A DNA stretch of 20,237 nt. Origin: a virus. Numbering within the stretch: position 1 is the stretch's first letter; the number at the start of each line of letters is the position of its first letter. Location of the stretch: IMG/VR virus record IMGVR_UViG_3300030382_000159, positions 1 through 20,237 of that record. One strand, 5' to 3'. Below are positions 1,216-16,481 of this stretch, in pieces. The position numbers and the translations under genes are program-made. A model generated the notes under the pieces. The model saw only the letters and a program-made list of their open reading frames with translations, ran no database searches and was not told the DNA's origin.

Positions 1216-1240
1216 CTTTTCTATTATATATTAGATGAAG
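1216..1240 (+). promoter_or_regulatory. Recurrent AT-rich element, copy 1 (putative late promoter)
   Basis: The 20 bases cttttctattatatattaga (1216-1235) recur exactly at 13971-13990, and the match continues through YGAAG in both. Related copies stand before 10688 and 11454. This copy overlaps the ATG of the tail chaperone gene (1235). A TATTATA core could be a -10-like sequence, but no -35 partner is obvious, so a phage-specific regulator or polymerase factor would be needed. The function is inference; the repetition is seen directly. Confidence 0.55.
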
Positions 1241-1834
1241 ATTAAGATTAAGAAGCAAGGAAAACAAAAAGAATTTAAGTTAATCAGTAAATGGGAAGAT
1301 GTCACCCTAGAAAAATGGATTAAACTTATTGATTTTAAAAAAGGTACAAAGACTGAAGAAGCAAAAGAAACAATAGCTTTATTGTCTAATATTCCAAAAG
1401 ATATAATAACCCAATTGGAATTAAAAGATGTTGTTTTAATAATGGGAAAGTTGGTTGAGTTTCAAGAAAAGCAAAACCATTCTTTAAAAAGAATAATTAA
1501 AATAGATGATGAAGAGTTTGGCTTTCATCCTGATTTGGAAGCTATTACTTTAGGTGAGTATGCAGATTTGGAGCAGTTTATAAAGTTAGGTGTTGAAGAT
1601 TACTTGCCAGAAATAATGGCAATTCTTTATAGACCAATAGTTGAAAGGGAAGGAAATCTCTACACTATTAAAGCGTATGAGGGCAATATAAAGTTAAGGG
1701 CAGAGAAGATGAAGAAAATGTCAGCAGAGCAAGTGCAAAGTGCACTGGTTTTTTTTTATCTTTTAGGAAACGTATCTATAACGACTACGGAATCATTTTT
1801 AACGGAACGCCTGAAGGGAACGAAGAAGCAATAG
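1235..1834 (+). CDS. Tail assembly chaperone, short form (G-like)
   Basis: A 199-residue, highly charged, mostly helical protein. It opens with a basic beta-strand-like stretch (KIKIKKQGKQKEFKL), then the segment KWEDVTLEKWIKL, and has a central LGEYADLEQFI segment near residue 107. I recognise this as the type of Bacteroidota phage protein annotated as tail assembly chaperone, but the strongest argument is genetic: an overlapping -1 frame encodes an 84-residue extension typical of lambda G/GT (next entry). Such proteins bind the tape measure and recruit tube subunits during tail assembly and are absent from the virion. The ATG lies inside the repeated AT-rich element, so the mRNA may be leaderless or transcribed from further upstream. 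The short form ends with 25 residues after the slip site that are specific to the zero frame. Confidence 0.75.
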   Translation: MKIKIKKQGKQKEFKLISKWEDVTLEKWIKLIDFKKGTKTEEAKETIALLSNIPKDIITQLELKDVVLIMGKLVEFQEKQNHSLKRIIKIDDEEFGFHPDLEAITLGEYADLEQFIKLGVEDYLPEIMAILYRPIVEREGNLYTIKAYEGNIKLRAEKMKKMSAEQVQSALVFFYLLGNVSITTTESFLTERLKGTKKQ

Positions 1835-2010
1835 CAAGTGAAACATTTGCAGAGAAGTGGGGGTATTTTGGGGTATTTTATAGATTATGTAATGCAGATA
1901 TTTCAAAATTAGAACACATAACAAGACTTAACCTATTAGAAGCTTTTACATGGTTAAGTTATGAAACAGATTTAGACACACAAAATAAAGTAAAACATGC
2001 CAATAAGTAA
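1235..2010 (+). CDS. Tail assembly chaperone, long form by -1 frameshift (GT-like)
   Basis: Joined reading: zero frame from 1235 through Phe174 (codon 1754-1756), then the -1 frame from 1756 to the stop at 2008-2010, giving 258 residues. The -1 frame has no ATG of its own near the junction but is open and protein-like: it contains AEKWGYFGVFYRLCN and ends WLSYETDLDTQNKVKHANK. The shift site is T TTT TTT at 1750-1756, a canonical X XXY YYZ heptamer inside a T9 run. The stop overlaps the start of the next gene by 14 bases. In lambda and many siphoviruses the minor GT product made this way is essential for tail assembly. Alternatives are transcriptional slippage on T9, or a one-base sequencing error (T10 would make one continuous gene). 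Confidence 0.7.
1750..1756 (+). other. Programmed -1 frameshift slippery heptamer
   Basis: The zero-frame codons are GTT TTT TTT TAT, so the ribosome can slip back one base on T TTT TTT (1750-1756) with full re-pairing of both tRNAs. The T-run is nine long (1749-1757), which also allows polymerase slippage. No strong downstream stem-loop or upstream Shine-Dalgarno-like stimulator is evident by eye. Confidence 0.7.
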
Positions 2011-8000: not shown

Positions 8001-8128
8001 GGGCTTCAGATATTAATACATTTGATTTTGCAGATACCGTATTCATCAAAAACCGAGAGTTTCGAGTGAATAAAATAGACTACAAACCAAATGATTTATC
8101 AATTGTTGAATTTATACTTATACCATAA
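5072..8128 (+). CDS. Tail-tip hub protein with embedded carbohydrate-binding-like domains
   Basis: A 1018-residue structural protein. About residues 35-195 form a jelly-roll-like, Ser/Thr/Gly-rich segment (from SYDTTGLVAN to VNIAVDQISILPQG) that resembles CenC-type carbohydrate-binding modules. The conserved core starts near 206 (VICDLYEDENIPLTLSVDNF, then KIQSYSKAFKLPGTKKNN). Residues 563-635 hold two units of the type TSVVVRQGGYYTGAAPTVTI, a repeat known from phage fibres. About 711-755 (QWEFLKGLMTMFNLVSLPD, ILIEPYGD) and the C-terminal strands (YKPNDLSIVEFILI) look like hub or tail-associated protein parts. It probably forms the tail tip that contacts the outer surface of the host. Translationally coupled to both neighbours (TAATG). 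The hub assignment is by motif recall and position. Confidence 0.75.
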   Translation: MNNVQLIIYPQFFNGRFNEISADTNEFVVDGINFNSFNASESYDTTGLVANSREEALVNLPPTYPNTWYRYRSTTGVTPALPVEALGSVRLYAGSSTTFTGVYQTLTNLTVGQNYTISIDIEVGSAGLVYINTYNVLGSSVFIRSQSIHVASASTLSTSFTASQPSQILMLTYVDSGSVNIAVDQISILPQGVKPSGADNILASGEVICDLYEDENIPLTLSVDNFKNAAEKIQSYSKAFKLPGTKKNNRIFDNIFEITRSAQGIVFNPYLKTQAKLKQDGFLLFEGYLRLIAIQDKKGEISYNVNLYSEVVALADVLKEKEFSDLDFSELLHNYHWDNIQASWTGALPLQNPLPVGTYAGTAGASSTGVLKYPFCNWNNSIVISNNIQPTLPNLESAFRPFISIKYCIDRIFESTPFTYTSNFFSSDVNFQNLYMDFNWGSETNPSLAEEAGWLRYTVPQDGTTTYATTSWSAYPLNPQTLEDEFGYDDTTHIFTVPAAQENSTYMMDYNCRVIAKKDANIEMRWVVNYGTATETVYNYSGVVALEGSAVANARFNWSTSYDTITSVVVRQGGYYTGAAPTVTIQSGLLPSTPTTFTATLTGTEVTSIAITGGDDAPYNLNGANTVYFNGINPVYTYEGTLNGVAGGVTLQPGDTLQLQWKASATDSIRQDDTINYFANDSYNVNTFRIPNTTNEVYCRISILAMTDDVLLQTLRGELSQWEFLKGLMTMFNLVSLPDKNNPNNILIEPYGDVFISDTAGLNLASRSISHDWTEKIDVQEIKLKPLTDLNKKTIFKFAEDEDDAAFSIYKNAVQGHLYGSKVYDASGFTVLQGEDEIVAEPFAATIVKPIIPDWGSLLIPTMYGMDDKGTPEGIDNLPRILFDCGVNTLSGYTYIVPNQNGVSGTNSQATWLQFSHLTQSNPTNAGTIDFHFGECQLIPPTGSPVPNNLFNTYWLPYYSQLYNPDTRIMSLKVDLRASDINTFDFADTVFIKNREFRVNKIDYKPNDLSIVEFILIP

Positions 8129-9000
8129 TGGCAGATATACCTTACATACAAGGATACCCAATAAAACCTTATTATATTAACCCCTTAGGAATTGTTGTAT
8201 TTACTGATGATACCACAAACAAAGCATTAGGCACTCTCTTAGAAGTTGCTCCAAATCAAAAACAGTGTGAAGCGTATGGTTATACTTATGATTCTAGCTC
8301 AGGTACTTGTATGGCTTATTCTCCTAGTACAAGTTTGGTTCAATCTTTTGCAAATATAAATAACACTATTCAAGGAAGTGATAATGTCACCGAAAGTGGC
8401 ACTAACAATTCCTATATAATGGGAGAACATAATAGGATAAAAACAAGAGGATTTAACAATATTATAATAGGTAATAATAATGAAATAGCGGATACAATAA
8501 GTAATACTGCTGTTTTTGGAACTTTAGGTCAAGCAACAGCAAGTAATTCAATAGTATTAGGGGGTAATGCAGCAGGGGATAATTTAGCTGAAAGACAAAA
8601 TATCCAATTAATGTATGGGTTGCAAACAACTGATGGAACAACAACAGATAGTTTTTTGAATAACACAACAGATAGTTATTTTGTAGTGCCTGATAATACT
8701 ATTATATTTTTTCATGCTTACGTTGTAGCAGTTAGAGTTGGTGGTACTTATGGAACTGGTGCAGTTGGTGATTATGGGAGTTGGGTTGAAAGGGGTGTAG
8801 TTATAAATAAGTCAGGTACTTTAAGTGTACAAAGAGAAAGAGATACAATTAAAACTTCAGGAACAACAACAGGCTGGATTCCTACAGCAGATGTTTCAGG
8901 AACAAATTTTAGAATGAAAGTAAGGGGGAGGAATAACGTAACGATTGAATGGAATAGTAATATTTCAATAACACAAATAAAAACAGGAGTAGCACTTTAA
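8128..9000 (+). CDS. Tail fibre / receptor-binding protein with beta-roll repeats
   Basis: A 290-residue protein. The short N-terminal region (1-65: MADIPYIQGYPIKPYYINP, two Cys in a YGYTYDSSSGTC segment) may anchor it to the tail tip. Residues about 70-160 carry Asn/Gly/Ile repeats such as NNTIQGSDNV, NNSYIMGEHNRI, FNNIIIGNNNEI and SNSIVLGG, as in trimeric YadA-head-like beta-rolls or beta-helices. The C-terminal 125 residues are a Thr/Gly-rich globular beta domain ending NSNISITQIKTGVAL, a likely receptor-binding tip. It overlaps the tip hub gene (TAATG) and precedes the tape measure by ten bases. Trimeric fibre is inferred from repeats; no chaperone or lyase motif is visible. Confidence 0.7.
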   Translation: MADIPYIQGYPIKPYYINPLGIVVFTDDTTNKALGTLLEVAPNQKQCEAYGYTYDSSSGTCMAYSPSTSLVQSFANINNTIQGSDNVTESGTNNSYIMGEHNRIKTRGFNNIIIGNNNEIADTISNTAVFGTLGQATASNSIVLGGNAAGDNLAERQNIQLMYGLQTTDGTTTDSFLNNTTDSYFVVPDNTIIFFHAYVVAVRVGGTYGTGAVGDYGSWVERGVVINKSGTLSVQRERDTIKTSGTTTGWIPTADVSGTNFRMKVRGRNNVTIEWNSNISITQIKTGVAL

Positions 9001-9010
9001 TATAAAAGAT

Positions 9011-10651
9011 ATGGCAAAAGAAGAAACATTATATTTGAATGTAGACAGTAACGTAGGAGATGTAACCAAAGACGTAGATAAGTTAGATGATGCAACTAAA
9101 AAAGCAAGTGGCGGTTTTAGAGGGATTGGTACAGCTGTTAAAGGTGTTGGTACAGCATTAAAAGCAGCAGGGATAGGTCTTATAGTCGCAATATTTGCTA
9201 AGCTGTTTCAATTATTTAGCCAGAACCAAAAAGTCCTAGATACTTTTAATACAGCGAACAAAGCAATTAGTATTGTGTTTAGAGATATGTTCGAGTTGTT
9301 ATCTGATAATGTAGGGAAAGTTACAGGATGGTTTAAAGAATTATTTGAAGACCCAAAACAAAAATTAATAGATTTTGGAGATGCTGTTAAGAAAAATTTA
9401 ATAGAAAGGTTCAACAGTTTTATTGAGTCAGTTGGTTTTTTAGGTGAAGCATTTAAGAAATTACTTGGCGGAGATTTTACAGGAGCAATGGCAGCAGCAA
9501 AAAACGCAGGTAGTGAGTGGGTTGACGTATTGACTGGGGTTGATAATACGGTAGGTAAAGTAAAAACAACTTTAATTGAGACAGCAGACAAATTAAATAA
9601 GTATGCAAAAGCAACTATAGAGACTGCAACAGAAATGACTGAGTTGGAAAAAGCAGCAAAATTAGCGACAGTAACATTTGCCAAACAAAATGCACAATTT
9701 TTAAAAGACGCTGAAGACCAAAGAAAAATAAGAGATGATGTAAATAAAACTTTTGCTGAAAGAATTACAGCCAATGAAAAATTAGCACAAATTTTAGTAG
9801 ACCAAGAAGCAGCTCAATTAAAACAGTTAAAGACAGTAAAAGATCAAGCTCAAGCTCAATACGATTTAACAAAGCTAGACGCTGATTTCCTAGCCTTACA
9901 AGAGGCAAAAGTTGCTATCATTGAAAATGAAGAGGCAGTAAGGGCTCAAGCTTCAGAACAACTTACAAATCAAGTGGCTTTAGAAAATGAACTAGCTGAA
10001 GCTATAAGGCAAGTAAATGTTGAAAGCCTTGCTGGGATGGAAAGAGAATTAGAAGAGTTAAAAAATAGTTATGATGCTAAAATAGATTTGGCAAGAAAGG
10101 CAGGTATGGATGACGCTGCTATTACAGAGCAATACGAAAAACAAAAAGCTGATATTGTTGGAAAGTATAGTAAAAAAGTAAAGAAATGGAGTGAGATGAC
10201 CAGAGATGAAAAGTTAAAAATTGCTTCTTCAACAGCAGGAGATTTAGCTGCTATTTTAGGTGAAACAACAGCAGCAGGAAAAGCTGCCGCAATAGTACAA
10301 ACAACTATTGATACATATCAGTCAGCACAAGCTGCTTATAAGTCCTTAGCAGGTATACCTTATGTTGGGCCTATACTTGGGGGTATAGCGGCAGCGGCAG
10401 CAGTTGCATCAGGGATAAGAAATGTTAATGCAATTAAAAGTGCTAGTTCAAGTGGAGCATCAGGTGGTGGTGGTGGTGGTGGTGGTACACCAGCTGTATC
10501 TGCACAAACTCCTGCCCCACAAATGATGTCAGGTGCTTTTGATTTAGGTGGTGGGATAGCTCCTGAACCAGTACAGGCATTTGTTGTAACAGATGAAATG
10601 ACTAACAGCCAAAATCAATTAGCAAACATAAGACGAAGAAGTACACTTTAA
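9011..10651 (+). CDS. Tail tape measure protein
   Basis: A 546-residue, mostly helical protein that sets tail length and is ejected ahead of the DNA. The N-terminus (NVDSNVGDVTKDVDKLDDAT) is typical of phage tape measures, followed by a Gly/Ala-rich hydrophobic segment with a membrane-like stretch near 46-68 (KAAGIGLIVAIFAKLFQLF). Residues about 190-400 are long Ala/Glu/Lys/Gln coiled coil. A second hydrophobic segment (YVGPILGGIAAAAAVASGI) lies near 449-467, then a poly-Gly linker and the C-terminal tail VTDEMTNSQNQLANIRRRS. At roughly 1.5 angstrom per residue this would give a tail of about 80 nm. The leader is A-rich with no Shine-Dalgarno. It stands unusually between fibre and capsid genes. 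Confidence 0.9.
   Translation: MAKEETLYLNVDSNVGDVTKDVDKLDDATKKASGGFRGIGTAVKGVGTALKAAGIGLIVAIFAKLFQLFSQNQKVLDTFNTANKAISIVFRDMFELLSDNVGKVTGWFKELFEDPKQKLIDFGDAVKKNLIERFNSFIESVGFLGEAFKKLLGGDFTGAMAAAKNAGSEWVDVLTGVDNTVGKVKTTLIETADKLNKYAKATIETATEMTELEKAAKLATVTFAKQNAQFLKDAEDQRKIRDDVNKTFAERITANEKLAQILVDQEAAQLKQLKTVKDQAQAQYDLTKLDADFLALQEAKVAIIENEEAVRAQASEQLTNQVALENELAEAIRQVNVESLAGMERELEELKNSYDAKIDLARKAGMDDAAITEQYEKQKADIVGKYSKKVKKWSEMTRDEKLKIASSTAGDLAAILGETTAAGKAAAIVQTTIDTYQSAQAAYKSLAGIPYVGPILGGIAAAAAVASGIRNVNAIKSASSSGASGGGGGGGGTPAVSAQTPAPQMMSGAFDLGGGIAPEPVQAFVVTDEMTNSQNQLANIRRRSTL
10463..10486 (+). repeat. (GGT)8 trinucleotide repeat
   Basis: Eight exact GGT units encode eight glycines in the C-terminal linker of the tape measure. 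In-frame slippage would change linker length without breaking the frame. Confidence 0.95.
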
Positions 10652-10670: not shown

Positions 10671-10690
10671 TAAATCTATTATATAATATG
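10671..10690 (+). promoter_or_regulatory. Recurrent AT-rich element, copy 2
   Basis: The sequence TCTATTATATAATATG (10675-10690) shares TCTATTATATAATA with copy 3 at 11422. It lies in the 36-base gap after the tape measure and runs straight into the ATG of the protease gene (10688). It marks the switch from tail to capsid genes. The T4-tract present in the other copies is missing here (taaa instead), so it may be weaker. Confidence 0.45.
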
Positions 10691-11413
10691 CCATGCGAAC
10701 AATGTGAAAACGGAAAATATAAATGGGGGAAGACAGGAAGCTGTGAATATGATTCAATAGCAGAATGTGAAGAAGCCAATAAAGACTATTACGAAAAGAC
10801 AACTGAAATTAGAGAGTTATTAATTGACGACAATAGTCAAGAACTAGCAATTGATGCTATTAGCTTAGTGTCAGCACCAGCCATAGAACAGGACTTTGTG
10901 TTTTTTGGGAAAGAAAAGAATAACTTGACTTTTGCTAAAATAGATGAAGAAAAAAGAATGATTGTAAGTCCAGCTTTAATCCCTAACAAGAATATCTTTA
11001 GATACGATCCAAATACAGACTCAGAATACTATGTATATTTCAGTCCTGAAACAGTTAGAAAAGCAAGTGAGTTATATTTAAAACATAACAATCATCACAA
11101 AGCTACATACGAACACCAAGATAGAGTAAGTGGTGTGCTTACAGTTGAGTCATGGATAATAGAAGACCCTAAAATGGACAAGTCTAAACTTTACGGATTT
11201 TCACTTCCTAAAGGAACTTGGATGGTCAAGCTATCCATCTCTAATCAAGATTTATGGTCTAAGATTAAAGACGGTGAACTTAAGGGGCTTTCGATAGAAG
11301 GCTACTTTACGGACAAGATGTCTAAGTTATCAGAAAAGACACCAACTAATGAAGAAATCTTATCAGCTTTAAATGAGATAATAAAGGAAAATCAAACAAA
11401 ATCAAATAACTAA
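10688..11413 (+). CDS. Capsid maturation protease (XkdF-like, Peptidase_S78_2 type)
   Basis: A 241-residue serine protease that should cleave scaffold and/or capsid protein during head maturation. The core (about 90-210) contains YEHQDRVSGVLTVESWIIED with the probable catalytic His143, then KGTWMVKLSISNQDLWSKIK and GELKGLSIEGYF with the probable nucleophile Ser202; the G.S(I/F)..G nucleophile elbow and the upstream His are typical of this family. The first 30 residues form a separate Cys module (Cys3, Cys6, Cys19, Cys27; MPCEQCENGKYKWG) that may bind zinc. The C-terminus is helical and polar. Scaffold and major capsid genes follow directly. The start is fixed by the Cys module, although it leaves no leader beyond the AT-rich element. 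Confidence 0.85.
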   Translation: MPCEQCENGKYKWGKTGSCEYDSIAECEEANKDYYEKTTEIRELLIDDNSQELAIDAISLVSAPAIEQDFVFFGKEKNNLTFAKIDEEKRMIVSPALIPNKNIFRYDPNTDSEYYVYFSPETVRKASELYLKHNNHHKATYEHQDRVSGVLTVESWIIEDPKMDKSKLYGFSLPKGTWMVKLSISNQDLWSKIKDGELKGLSIEGYFTDKMSKLSEKTPTNEEILSALNEIIKENQTKSNN

Positions 11414-11417
11414 CTAA

Positions 11418-11437
11418 TTTTTCTATTATATAATAGA
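11418..11437 (+). promoter_or_regulatory. Recurrent AT-rich element, copy 3 (perfect palindrome)
   Basis: tttttctattatataataga precedes the scaffold gene by 16 bases. The core TCTATTATATAATAGA (11422-11437) is a perfect 16-bp palindrome, which suggests a dimeric protein site as well as, or instead of, a -10-type promoter sequence. It differs at two positions from copies 1 and 4. Confidence 0.55.
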
Positions 11438-11453
11438 ACTTAAAAAACACACT

Positions 11454-12170
11454 ATGGATTTAAAAGAACAAATATTAGTAGCTCTTGGTCTTAATAAGAA
11501 AGATGAAGAAGTGAAATTAGCTTGGCAGTCAAAGTCTGAAGATGGTACAATCTTTGTATCAACTGCTGAAGAGCTAGAAGCTGGGGTGGACATCTCAGTA
11601 TTAACAGAAGACGGAACGACAATCTTATTGCCTGTTGGAACTTATAAAACGGATACAGGAGTTAGCTTTCGTGTGGAAACTGAAGGTATTGTTGCTGAAG
11701 TTATCGAATCAGAAACGGAAGAAGAAGTTGAAGCATCTGAAGAGTTATCTGAAGAAGTTGCTGAAACTGAATTAGCTGAAGAAGATGAAGATGATGACAG
11801 AAAAGAAACAGCTGATGTAGGTGACTGGAGAGGTATGGAGAAACGTATCCAAAACTTAGAAGATGCGGTTGCTGATCTTAAAAGAGAGAAAGTAGGTGGG
11901 GATGATGAAGTTGAAGAAATGTCAGAAGAAGCTGAAGAACCTTCTACAAACCCTAAGTCAATAAAAACTACTGAAGTAGTAGAATTTTCAGCAGAAGAAG
12001 TAGAATCAATAAAATCTGAGAATGAAAAACTTAAAGAAGAATTAGCAAAAACACCTGCTGATTCTCCAATTAACACAAACAAATTTAGTTCAGAAAAACC
12101 TAGAATGTCTAGGGCAGCTTATAGTAAACTGTCTAAGCGTGAAAGAATTTTAATGGATTTAGAAAAATAA
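11454..12170 (+). CDS. Putative head scaffolding protein
   Basis: A 238-residue, very acidic protein. The N-terminal 85 residues form a small domain (MDLKEQILVALGLNKKDEE, then strands including GTTILLPVGTYKTDTG). The middle is almost all Glu/Asp/Ala/Ser (about 85-165), a helix with RIQNLEDAVADLKRE follows near 132-146, and residues 183-200 (VESIKSENEKLKEELAK) are a coiled coil. The C-terminus (MSRAAYSKLSKRERILMDLEK) is basic, as in scaffolds that bind the inner capsid surface. Acidic composition, coiled coil, and the position between protease and major capsid genes all point to a scaffold. No sequence motif proves it. Antisense to it runs an open frame that is a shadow of the Glu-rich codons. 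Confidence 0.75.
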   Translation: MDLKEQILVALGLNKKDEEVKLAWQSKSEDGTIFVSTAEELEAGVDISVLTEDGTTILLPVGTYKTDTGVSFRVETEGIVAEVIESETEEEVEASEELSEEVAETELAEEDEDDDRKETADVGDWRGMEKRIQNLEDAVADLKREKVGGDDEVEEMSEEAEEPSTNPKSIKTTEVVEFSAEEVESIKSENEKLKEELAKTPADSPINTNKFSSEKPRMSRAAYSKLSKRERILMDLEK

Positions 12171-12203: not shown

Positions 12204-13115
12204 ATGGCGTTTACAGTAACACAAGCGAACTTTAATGGGAAAGCGGCAGGATTTTATATTTCCGCAGCATTAAAACAAGCTAAGTCGTTAGAATATCTAA
12301 CAGTCTTAGAAAACATAAAGTATAAAGAGAACATCCAGAAGATGGCAGGATCTGGATTAGTTTTAGACAATAGCTGCGACTTTAATTCAGCAGGAACTTT
12401 GGCTATGACAGAAGCAGTATTAGAACCTAAGAATTTACAAATCAACCTTAATATTTGCAAGGCTACACTTTTAACTTCATGGGAAGCGTTACAAATGAGA
12501 GCAGGTAGAGATGCAGGAGCATCCGCTTCTTTTGATGATTATGTAATCTCTTACATGGGGGAAATTATAGCAGATGCTACGGAATCTTCTATATGGTCAG
12601 GAGTAACAGGAACTCCAGGCGAATTTAATGGATTTACAGGGTATCATTTATTACCTGGAACTGATGCAACAGTTGTTCAATCAGCAGCATCAGCGGCTTA
12701 TACAGCAGGTAATATCATTGCTAATTTACAAACTTTAGTAACTGATATTTTAGGTGGTACAGCAGCAGATGTTTTAGGGAAAGATGATGCATATATATTT
12801 ATGAACCAATTAACATTCCAATTTTATATTCAAGCGATTTCTGCTTTAGGATATGTTCAAACTTATACGGACAATGAGTTCGCAATGAGTTTTGAAGGAA
12901 TAAAAATTGCAGTAGTACCTGGAATGCAGACAAACCAAATGGTATTTGGACAGAAGTCAAATCTATTTTTTGGGACTGACCTTTTATCGGACAGCACTAG
13001 AATAGGTCTGATGGACATGAGTGCTTTGGACGGAAGCGACAATATTCGCTTAGTGGCGAGATATACAGCAGGAGTTGTTCAAGGTGTAGGTGCTGACATA
13101 GTAAGACAATCATAA
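12204..13115 (+). CDS. Major capsid protein
   Basis: A 303-residue protein with features of an HK97-fold capsid subunit: a helical N-arm (AAGFYISAALKQAKSLEYLTVL), a long amphipathic spine-like region (WEALQMRAGRDAGASASFDDYV), and an alternating alpha/beta second half. The motifs GEFNGFTGYHLLPG and FEGIKIAVVPGMQTNQMVFG (about 230-250) are of the capsid type, where a P-domain strand precedes a final loop with KSNLFFGTDLLSDSTRI. It follows protease and scaffold genes and is followed by a stable hairpin, as expected for a highly expressed gene. The leader (aataaaaaataaacaattatg) is A-rich without Shine-Dalgarno. Assignment rests on gene order and overall pattern; fold family is inferred. Confidence 0.85.
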   Translation: MAFTVTQANFNGKAAGFYISAALKQAKSLEYLTVLENIKYKENIQKMAGSGLVLDNSCDFNSAGTLAMTEAVLEPKNLQINLNICKATLLTSWEALQMRAGRDAGASASFDDYVISYMGEIIADATESSIWSGVTGTPGEFNGFTGYHLLPGTDATVVQSAASAAYTAGNIIANLQTLVTDILGGTAADVLGKDDAYIFMNQLTFQFYIQAISALGYVQTYTDNEFAMSFEGIKIAVVPGMQTNQMVFGQKSNLFFGTDLLSDSTRIGLMDMSALDGSDNIRLVARYTAGVVQGVGADIVRQS

Positions 13116-13150: not shown

Positions 13151-13210
13151 TCCTTTAACCCTTAACTGATTGACTATTAATCACTTAGTTAAAAAAAAAT
13201 ATAACAGAAT

Positions 13211-13795
13211 ATGGCATGTACAAACATAACAAAAGGGAGAGGACTTGATTGTAATAGAATTAGCGGCGGCGTAAAGTTCATTTACTTTGGAGTTTATGAC
13301 CAATTTACTGCTCCAATTGAAACAGTAGGAATCGTAGCAGCTTCAGGTGAAATTACGGATATTGAAATGGGAGCAGGGACTGGATTATATAGATATTCTA
13401 TGCCTTTAGGTGTAGCATCTGTAACAGATACAATAGTTGGTAGTCGTGAAAACGGAACTATCTACTACACACCAACAGCTCAAGTATTATTCAACAGACT
13501 TACGAAAGAGGATCAAAACCAAATAAAGCTCTTAGGAGCTACGAAATTAGTTATTTTCGCACAGCTTAATCAACAATTATCTAATGGTCATGATTTAATT
13601 ATTGGTTTAGGAATAACTAACGGAATGGAACTTAATGCAGGTACTATGGATACTGGCGCAGCGTGGGGCGACAAAAACGGATACACACTTACGTTTGACG
13701 GAATGGAGGCAGACCCATTCTCAATGGTTGCAGATTACACAGACAATCCATTTGACAATGCAGCGTTTACGAATGTTTCTATAACGAGTTCTTAA
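13211..13795 (+). CDS. Probable major tail tube protein
   Basis: A 194-residue soluble beta-rich protein. It begins MACTNITKGRGLDCNRISGG, then strands VKFIYFGVYDQF and ITDIEMGAGTGLYRYSMP. The second half has TKLVIFAQLNQQ, DLIIGLGITNGMELNAG, and GDKNGYTLTFDGMEADPFS (about 153-171). The pattern 'ligl.nGmel..gt...G...gD.nGytltf.g.E..P' is one I associate with Bacteroidota phage tail tubes. It is flanked by a UUCG hairpin upstream and a strong terminator downstream, as expected for an abundant virion protein expressed as its own unit. Location between capsid and portal is unusual for a tube gene; a capsid decoration protein is the main alternative. Confidence 0.7.
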   Translation: MACTNITKGRGLDCNRISGGVKFIYFGVYDQFTAPIETVGIVAASGEITDIEMGAGTGLYRYSMPLGVASVTDTIVGSRENGTIYYTPTAQVLFNRLTKEDQNQIKLLGATKLVIFAQLNQQLSNGHDLIIGLGITNGMELNAGTMDTGAAWGDKNGYTLTFDGMEADPFSMVADYTDNPFDNAAFTNVSITSS

Positions 13796-14486: not shown

Positions 14487-16481
14487 ATGAAAGACAATAT
14501 TATTAACATCAATTTAGAAACAAGTACAGCTCCTAGTGTAAAAGAAGTTAGAGGCAAGGACTACATTGAATATGGCACAGACGACTGGACTAACCTATAC
14601 CCTCAATTTCTTATTGATTTATACTATTCTAGTAGTATATCAGCAGCAATTATTAATGCAACAGCAGAGATGGTTGCAGGTGAAGATTTAATTATTGAAG
14701 ATGAAGATGATAGAGATTTAGACGCTAGAATAAAACTTCAGAATTTTATGAATAGAGCTAATGGTAATGAGAGCTTACATGAAGTAATTAAAAAGATGGC
14801 TTTTGACTTTAAATTACAAGGGGCGTTTGCTCTTAACGTTGTATGGACAAAGGATAGGACTGAAATCGCTGAGATTTACCACGTTGGCGTTGAGAAAATT
14901 CGCTGTGCTAGACCTGATGAGTTTGGAAAAATAAAAGGTTATTATATTAGTGCGGACTGGTCAAACACTAGACAAAACAAACCTTATTACGTACCAGCGT
15001 TTAATACTAATGATAGAACATCAGCAAACCAAATAATGTATTCAGGTCTTTATAGCCCTAATATGAACAGCTATTATACGCCTGATTACGTTTCTTGTAA
15101 TAACTGGGCATTGATTGATGCTAGGGTTTCAGAGTACCACCTCAACAATATATCTAACGGATTCGCTGGATCATTCATGATTAGCTTTGCAAACGGCGTA
15201 CCAACACAAGAAGAAAGATTCCAAATAGAGCAAAGTCTAACTGACAAATTTTGTTCTGAGGCTAATAGCGGCAAATTTGTATTAACATTTTCAGACGATA
15301 AAACAAGAACACCTGAAATAACACCAATTAGCACAAGTGATTTAGATAAAAGTTATTTAGCTCTTCAAGAACTACTTACTAGCAACATCCTCTCAGGCCA
15401 TAGGGTGACTTCTAAGACACTTATGGGCATTGACAGTACTAATGGCTTCAGTTCTAATACAGACGAGCTTATAAACGCTGCGAATTTTTACTTAAATACT
15501 GTAATTAAACCGTTTCAAGACCAAATAGTAAAGCAACTTAGAAAGATATTTCAAGTTAATAATATGGATATGCCTGTCAACTTTGTACAGCTTAAACCTA
15601 TAACAGTTCAATTTGATTCTAAAACTCTAAGAGAAGTTATGACACAAGATGAAATTAGAGAAGAATTAGGATTAGAACCATTAGGTGATGAAGCAACTGT
15701 TGAACAAGAAGTTAAGTTTAACAAAGTTGGTATGATAGATGGAAAACCTATTTTCAATACAATAGAAGAGGCTGAAGAGCATTCTAGGTCTTTAGGGTGT
15801 GAGGGGTACCATACGCATGAATATGAAGGTAAAACAGCTTATATGGCGTGTGAAGGACATGAAGAGGCAACAGAGCTTCATAAATTTATTGAAGAATATG
15901 GAGAAGATTTGCCTGAAGAATGGGAATTAGTAGATGAAGAAATAGTAGATGGAGAGCATCAAGATTTCGACTTTGAATTAGAACTTAATAACAAGATAAA
16001 AGACAAATTAGAATTAGCTTCAACAGGAACAGCTAGACCTAATGCAAAAAGTAGTCAAGATGGAACAAATAAATCAGATAATGATTTTTATAAAGTAAGG
16101 TATGTATATACGAAAGATAATTTTTTAAGTCAAGAAGGAGAAACTAGAGATTTTTGCAGATTAATGACAAATGCAAAAAAAGTTTATCGAAAAGAGGATA
16201 TTTTACAAATGACTAATAGAGCAGTAAATCCAGGCTGGGGCCCACGTGGAGCAGCAACATATTCAATATGGCTTTACAAAGGTGGAGGGAATTGCCACCA
16301 TTTTTGGCTAAGAAGAATTTACAAAACATCACTAAGAGGAGCTAAAAGTGATATTAAACCTAGCGAAGCCATTTCTTATACTAAGGCATTGTCAGAAGGC
16401 TTCACAGCAAAAAGAAATGACAGTCTTGTTGCAAGACCACCAAAAAGAATGACTAATCAAGGATTTTTAGAACCAAGATAA
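14487..16481 (+). CDS. Portal protein with C-terminal Cys/His extensions
   Basis: A 664-residue protein. Residues about 1-400 look like a portal: TDDWTNLYPQFLIDLYYSSS near the start, a helix AAIINATAEMVAGEDL, the strand-helix region FALNVVWTKDRTEIAEIYHV, SGHRVTSKTLMGID, and a long C-terminal helix NAANFYLNTVIKPFQDQIVK that would line the channel. It should form the dodecameric ring at the capsid vertex for packaging and tail joining. Two extra parts follow: a Cys/His cluster at 438-458 (Cys438, His442, His444, Cys455, His458) that may bind zinc, then an acidic linker, and a domain at about 531-620 with DNDFYKVRYVYTKDNF, DFCRLM (Cys557), VYRKEDILQM, NPGWGPRG and GGGNCHHFW (Cys603, His604, His605). 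The end is basic. The extensions may replace a separate MuF-like minor head protein. Confidence 0.85.
   Translation: MKDNIININLETSTAPSVKEVRGKDYIEYGTDDWTNLYPQFLIDLYYSSSISAAIINATAEMVAGEDLIIEDEDDRDLDARIKLQNFMNRANGNESLHEVIKKMAFDFKLQGAFALNVVWTKDRTEIAEIYHVGVEKIRCARPDEFGKIKGYYISADWSNTRQNKPYYVPAFNTNDRTSANQIMYSGLYSPNMNSYYTPDYVSCNNWALIDARVSEYHLNNISNGFAGSFMISFANGVPTQEERFQIEQSLTDKFCSEANSGKFVLTFSDDKTRTPEITPISTSDLDKSYLALQELLTSNILSGHRVTSKTLMGIDSTNGFSSNTDELINAANFYLNTVIKPFQDQIVKQLRKIFQVNNMDMPVNFVQLKPITVQFDSKTLREVMTQDEIREELGLEPLGDEATVEQEVKFNKVGMIDGKPIFNTIEEAEEHSRSLGCEGYHTHEYEGKTAYMACEGHEEATELHKFIEEYGEDLPEEWELVDEEIVDGEHQDFDFELELNNKIKDKLELASTGTARPNAKSSQDGTNKSDNDFYKVRYVYTKDNFLSQEGETRDFCRLMTNAKKVYRKEDILQMTNRAVNPGWGPRGAATYSIWLYKGGGNCHHFWLRRIYKTSLRGAKSDIKPSEAISYTKALSEGFTAKRNDSLVARPPKRMTNQGFLEPR

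Follow-up and report, generated by a model that had tools for sequence, protein, structure and literature searches.

A conserved T9 run links two reading frames of a probable tail-assembly chaperone gene in phages related to Nonlabens phage P12024S

The DNA analyzed here (the window) is the whole virus record IMGVR_UViG_3300030382_000159, with a length of 20,237 bases. Its plus strand starts with a gene for the terminase large subunit (terL; positions 2 to 1117, 5' end outside the window; Terminase_3, E = 1.8e-27), which is 61% identical to its counterpart in Nonlabens phage P12024S and, as a conserved neighbor, directly precedes the locus of interest. At this locus, an open reading frame (ORF) on the plus strand at positions 1235 to 1834 encodes a G-like protein of 199 amino acids (phrog_32199, E = 6.4e-11; AlphaFold model with a pLDDT of 82). 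Near its end, the ORF contains a run of nine T (T9; positions 1749 to 1757, plus strand) in the frame G GTT TTT TTT TAT, the only run of at least seven T on the plus strand of the window. Within T9, the heptamer T TTT TTT at 1750 to 1756 (plus strand) is in the zero frame and represents a possible ribosomal -1 slip site. Beyond the run, the -1 frame is open for 84 codons and ends with a TAA at 2008 to 2010 (T-like part, 1756 to 2010, plus strand), thereby overlapping the next start, an ATG at 1997. With stop codons making up 12.9% of the -1-frame codons within the window's genes, an open stretch of this length has a chance probability of about 1e-5 and is thus more than a chance occurrence. 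The G-like protein accordingly consists of about 174 residues common to both predicted products plus a tail of 25 residues specific to the unslipped reading, and a fused product would comprise 174 + 84 = 258 amino acids. A preliminary description of this DNA had proposed a tail chaperone pair of the G/GT type made by -1 frameshifting on the T run, and its account of the zero-frame stop and protein length, the 84 open codons, the slippery heptamer, and a fused form of 258 residues agrees with these coordinates.

To collect relatives, IMG/VR was scanned with both parts of the gene (G and extension), which yielded two sets; all of the first 157 loci having both frames carry exactly T9. Later relatives from freshwater and marine sources were found with the Nonlabens phage protein and with one further member. 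Removal of identical contexts left 223 loci, which form 32 clusters at 70% identity and extend down to about 25% identity. In these, the run is T9 in 221 cases and T10 in two, while shorter runs and fused frames do not occur; both frames are kept, and the extension has a length of 80 to 92 amino acids wherever it is complete. The codons around the run vary, with AGT, TCA, or AGC before it, CTG, TTG, or CTA among the flanking codons, and TAT, TGG, or TGC after it. In one clade (L034, L055, and L118), the run is displaced by two bases (CGG TTT TTT TTT GCT), and in another relative (L379) it is T10 followed by C, and in both the length is still at least nine. A DNA search for the motif FFYHLGND that allowed either TTC or TTT led to the same picture, with T9 or T10 in 63 of 63 matches that have a -1 extension; three further matches without an extension apparently belong to other genes. 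Homologues therefore behave as the preliminary description had anticipated for a genuine slip site, which is kept in 223 of 223 loci amid synonymous variation of the flanks, and the in-frame T10 fusion that it had named as a refutation was not found among them.

Estimates of selection in the window's clade separate the two frames clearly. Read in the -1 frame, the extension has a dN/dS of 0.146, as opposed to 1.21 for its frame-0 reading, and the value for G upstream of the run is 0.126. The extension is thus under purifying selection in the -1 frame to a degree comparable to that of G, and its frame-0 reading is not. In the dual-coding overlap (1758 to 1834, plus strand), the -1 reading is constrained (dN/dS of 0.28) and the zero-frame tail is nearly unconstrained (0.86), so that a particular tail sequence may not be required in the short form. 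On the evidence of these sequence comparisons, the slip site is real and old, as are the -1 extension and the selection acting on it.

The same arrangement is present in two cultured phages, Nonlabens phages P12024S and P12024L, in which T9 persists at about 28% identity and the locus has been annotated as two unrelated hypothetical genes. In P12024S (L159:9917-10611), genes 38 and 39 make up a single gene fused by slippage, its T9 being located at L159:10359-10367, and the -1 frame is open from the run into the annotated gene 39. The predicted short and long forms of this phage, whose host is Nonlabens (Persicivirga) sp. IMCC12024, have 175 and about 230 residues, respectively. The extension had been treated as a stray gene in these two phages, and the PHROGs family phrog_38404, consisting of 55-amino-acid fragments, was made of it and fits the gene 39 fragment of P12024S. 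Searches by tblastn with the extension of the window and with that of a freshwater relative matched no cultured phage.

A Foldseek search with the AlphaFold model of G led to Flavobacterium phage 6H. Its GT-like gene (L448:10352-10927) is cut at 191 amino acids by a divergent patch, representing either an error or a real break, and is a single ORF of 293 amino acids in its relatives 23T and FPSV-F7; phage 6H was therefore dropped as a split homologue. Unsplit homologues of 259 to 301 amino acids (phrog_25418) were found in Flavobacterium phages FPSV-F7, 23T, and laban6-1, Cellulophaga phage Ingeline, Polaribacter phage Leef, and Microcystis phage Mea-Yong924, and a scan with one of these proteins found nothing new. 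In hhalign comparisons, the profile of the fused GT aligned with the single-ORF proteins over 216 columns spanning the slip junction (probability of 98%, E = 1e-13), and reversed controls gave no match. G alone reached 96.6% and the T part alone gave a weak match (3.75%, E = 0.011), so that the evidence for homology lies in the alignment of the whole GT and its reversed controls. Since the alignment covers the fused protein over its full length and its partners are encoded by a single uninterrupted ORF, the 258-residue fusion very probably exists as a protein. Judging from these relatives, some phages manage without a split gene.

We propose that slippage on T9 gives rise to a short and a long product that probably form a pair of tail-assembly chaperones, and we assign this explanation as a whole a probability of roughly 75%. 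Straight reading through T9 would yield the 199-residue G-like protein, and slippage into the -1 frame would yield the 258-residue GT-like fusion, the last 84 residues of which would form a second domain; the two proteins would share 174 residues. The split state has been kept even though one additional T would fuse the frames permanently, which implies a need for the two products in a certain ratio. If the slippage is caused by RNA polymerase, some of the mRNAs would carry U10 or U7; if it is caused by the ribosome, it would occur as -1 slippage on U UUU UUU, and both mechanisms may add up.

The preliminary description had allowed both machines for the -1 frameshift on T9. The slip site and the change of frame have stood, being kept in the 223 loci, and as to the machine, we rate RNA polymerase, slipping on T9, slightly above even odds and the ribosome, with a -1 slip on U UUU UUU, slightly below. 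The heptamer at 1750 to 1756 conforms to X XXY YYZ in the zero frame, and all 223 loci have a homopolymer of at least nine A or T, as is typical of transcriptional slippage. It is conceivable, at somewhat less than even chances, that the same G/GT pair is made by ribosomal -1 frameshifting and that T9 is kept only to satisfy the needs of both frames for hydrophobic or aromatic residues at this place. T TTT TTT is found in frame in every relative; since any T9 run contains this heptamer, its presence by itself does not separate the mechanisms. An aliphatic residue ahead of FF would account for the first T of the run, and Tyr, Trp, or Cys behind it for the ninth. Also, lambda G/GT and the known chaperone pairs are ribosomal (PMC5009743), and the T6G, T7G, and T7C sites of P2-like phages have been described as translational (PMC3931495). 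Against this stands the second Phe codon, which is never TTC, a codon that accounts for 22% of Phe codons elsewhere. In the common context GTT TTT TTT TAT, a change to TTC would be silent in both frames, and the probability of its absence would be 0.78^32 = 3e-4 if kinship is ignored. The run is never shorter than nine, even where it is displaced or followed by C. Moreover, folding of the downstream 90 nt of each of 20 relatives revealed no stimulatory RNA structure beyond that of shuffled sequences (z = -1.07 to +1.71, mean of +0.2). Such structures are frequent in ribosomal -1 cassettes, though not obligatory.

The remaining ORFs of these phages also contain fewer runs of at least nine A or T than expected. 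Compared with a synonymous shuffle as the null, 8 A runs were seen where 28 were expected, and no T run where 1.3 were expected, the T count being too small to be read alone. This depletion agrees with a threshold of nine nucleotides, the length at which many bacterial genomes avoid runs prone to slippage (PMC1088944). The constant presence of nine or more T, the depletion of A/T runs, and the absent RNA structure tilt the balance slightly toward polymerase slippage. Loss of one U would lead into the +1 frame, which has a stop within three codons in 200 of the 223 loci. A broader scenario, in which polymerase slippage on T9 sets the ratio of short to long tail chaperone in a large family related to the Nonlabens phages and sister lineages with a single ORF avoid the need for a short form or solve it otherwise, is somewhat less likely than not. 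The sole A9 run of the window lies at 13191 to 13199, between an ORF that ends at 13115 and one that begins at 13211.

With respect to function, the conserved two-frame pair named by the preliminary description was found, and the chaperone role that it had assigned is suggested by the split G/GT architecture, the position in the structural module, and weak fold matches; the pair probably acts in tail assembly in this way. By analogy to gpG/gpGT of lambda, the role of the short form would be to coat the tape measure protein, that of the long form to recruit the tail-tube subunit, and both would be absent from virions. The overlapping frames with a programmed frame change are conserved in the 223 loci and backed by the dN/dS values. 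Foldseek with the G model matched predicted proteins labeled as tail-assembly chaperones (TAC) with probabilities of 0.99 and 0.98 and poor E values of 0.014 and 0.22. Searches of the PDB by sequence and by structure gave no usable match, the extension modeled alone was poor (pLDDT of 58), and the best E value to phrog_166, "tail protein", was 0.005 (four members). Pfam and PHROGs offered no function for the pair, and its PHROGs are without functional annotation.

As already described for this DNA, the pair lies beside the terminase and seven genes from the tape measure gene (9011 to 10651, plus strand; phrog_3336, E = 7.5e-15; phrog_1538), with six genes in between. In lambda, the corresponding pair is located just before the tape measure gene, an adjacency that is usual and not defining. 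The order of the window is kept in contigs L236, L237, and L238. In Cellulophaga phage Ingeline, the homologue is found three genes before the tape measure gene, so the position varies among homologues. The missing functional annotation in PHROGs, the location next to terL here and a short distance behind terL in Microcystis phage Mea-Yong924, and that after portal and adaptor in Ingeline would also fit a real split-gene pair that serves as another head-neck or tail-assembly factor in two lengths. We consider this unlikely, given the fold matches to TAC-labeled proteins and given that the vicinity of the tape measure gene showed no second overlapping pair of the G/GT type; there, the preceding gene (8128 to 9000) appears fiber-like by its repeats. 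These are NNxI/GxxN repeats, resembling the head of a beta-roll adhesin, and the gene has no match in Pfam.

That the extension forms an independent gene, translated from its own start instead of as part of a fusion, is highly improbable. In favor of this reading, the annotation of P12024S lets gene 39 begin at an ATG, and GTG or TTG codons occur early in the extension of some relatives. The extension of the window contains no ATG, GTG, or TTG codon and hence cannot be an ordinary separate gene; 195 of the 223 loci lack an ATG before codon 28, conservation begins at the slip site itself (LSFR), and the whole is encoded as one ORF in other relatives. A sequencing error, a decayed gene, or a phase-variable run with a true T10 single ORF has a negligible probability: homopolymers are error prone and one added T would fuse the frames, but the uniform run length, T9 or T10 in phase in 223 of 223 non-identical loci from independent assemblies and cultured phages, with no fused or T8 variant, rules these readings out, and from the sequences the observation is real and no sequencing error.

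The locus probably belongs to an already known class of phage devices, and its slip site is unusually strict. As in lambda gpG/gpGT, one gene near the structural module is predicted to give two products by a -1 shift shortly before the first ORF ends, with an extension of similar scale (PMC5009743). In contrast to lambda, the slip site is T9, and the lambda proteins show no detectable match to the pair in sequence or PDB fold. The slip site of lambda is G GGA AAG. The E/E' genes of P2-like phages likewise use a T run as the slip site of a tail chaperone gene (PMC3931495), yet these runs have six to seven T followed by a variable base, whereas those of the window's family have nine, rarely ten, in every relative. 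No P2-like E/E' protein is listed among the matches of the family. The phrog_25418 proteins are homologous end to end to the fused GT across the junction and differ from it in being uninterrupted, without a T9 run and without a short form made by slippage. Bacterial slippage genes with 9T or 9A (Thermus dnaX, Shigella mxiE, and insertion sequence elements) share with the locus a run of about nine at which extra bases lead to a second product (PMC1088944), and runs of nine are avoided elsewhere, as is also the case in the window's phages. No report of transcriptional slippage in phage tail chaperones was found in the literature searched.

The analysis recovers a missing domain of 84 amino acids in hundreds of phage genomes, including the two cultured phages. 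Nonlabens phage P12024S offers a cultured system for the question of ribosome versus polymerase in a tail gene, and the split and unsplit homologues provide a natural comparison for the question of why the frameshift is retained in most long-tailed phages.

Several further observations concern the surroundings of the pair. After the tape measure gene, positions 10688 to 12170 hold a gene for a serine protease of the XkdF type (PF14550) and an ORF whose acidic product is scaffold-like; they are followed at 12204 to 13115 by a gene that by this position is probably the capsid gene. Tail genes precede head genes in this order. A portal-like protein is encoded at 14487 to 16481 and has a long C-terminal part (ending ...GGGNCHHFWLRRIY...), possibly a fusion. 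Finally, contigs L236, L237, and L238, filed as metagenome-assembled genomes of Pseudooceanicola and Euryarchaeota, are phage contigs of the same family, most genes of L236 being about 99 to 100% identical to those of the window, and are therefore likely mis-binned.
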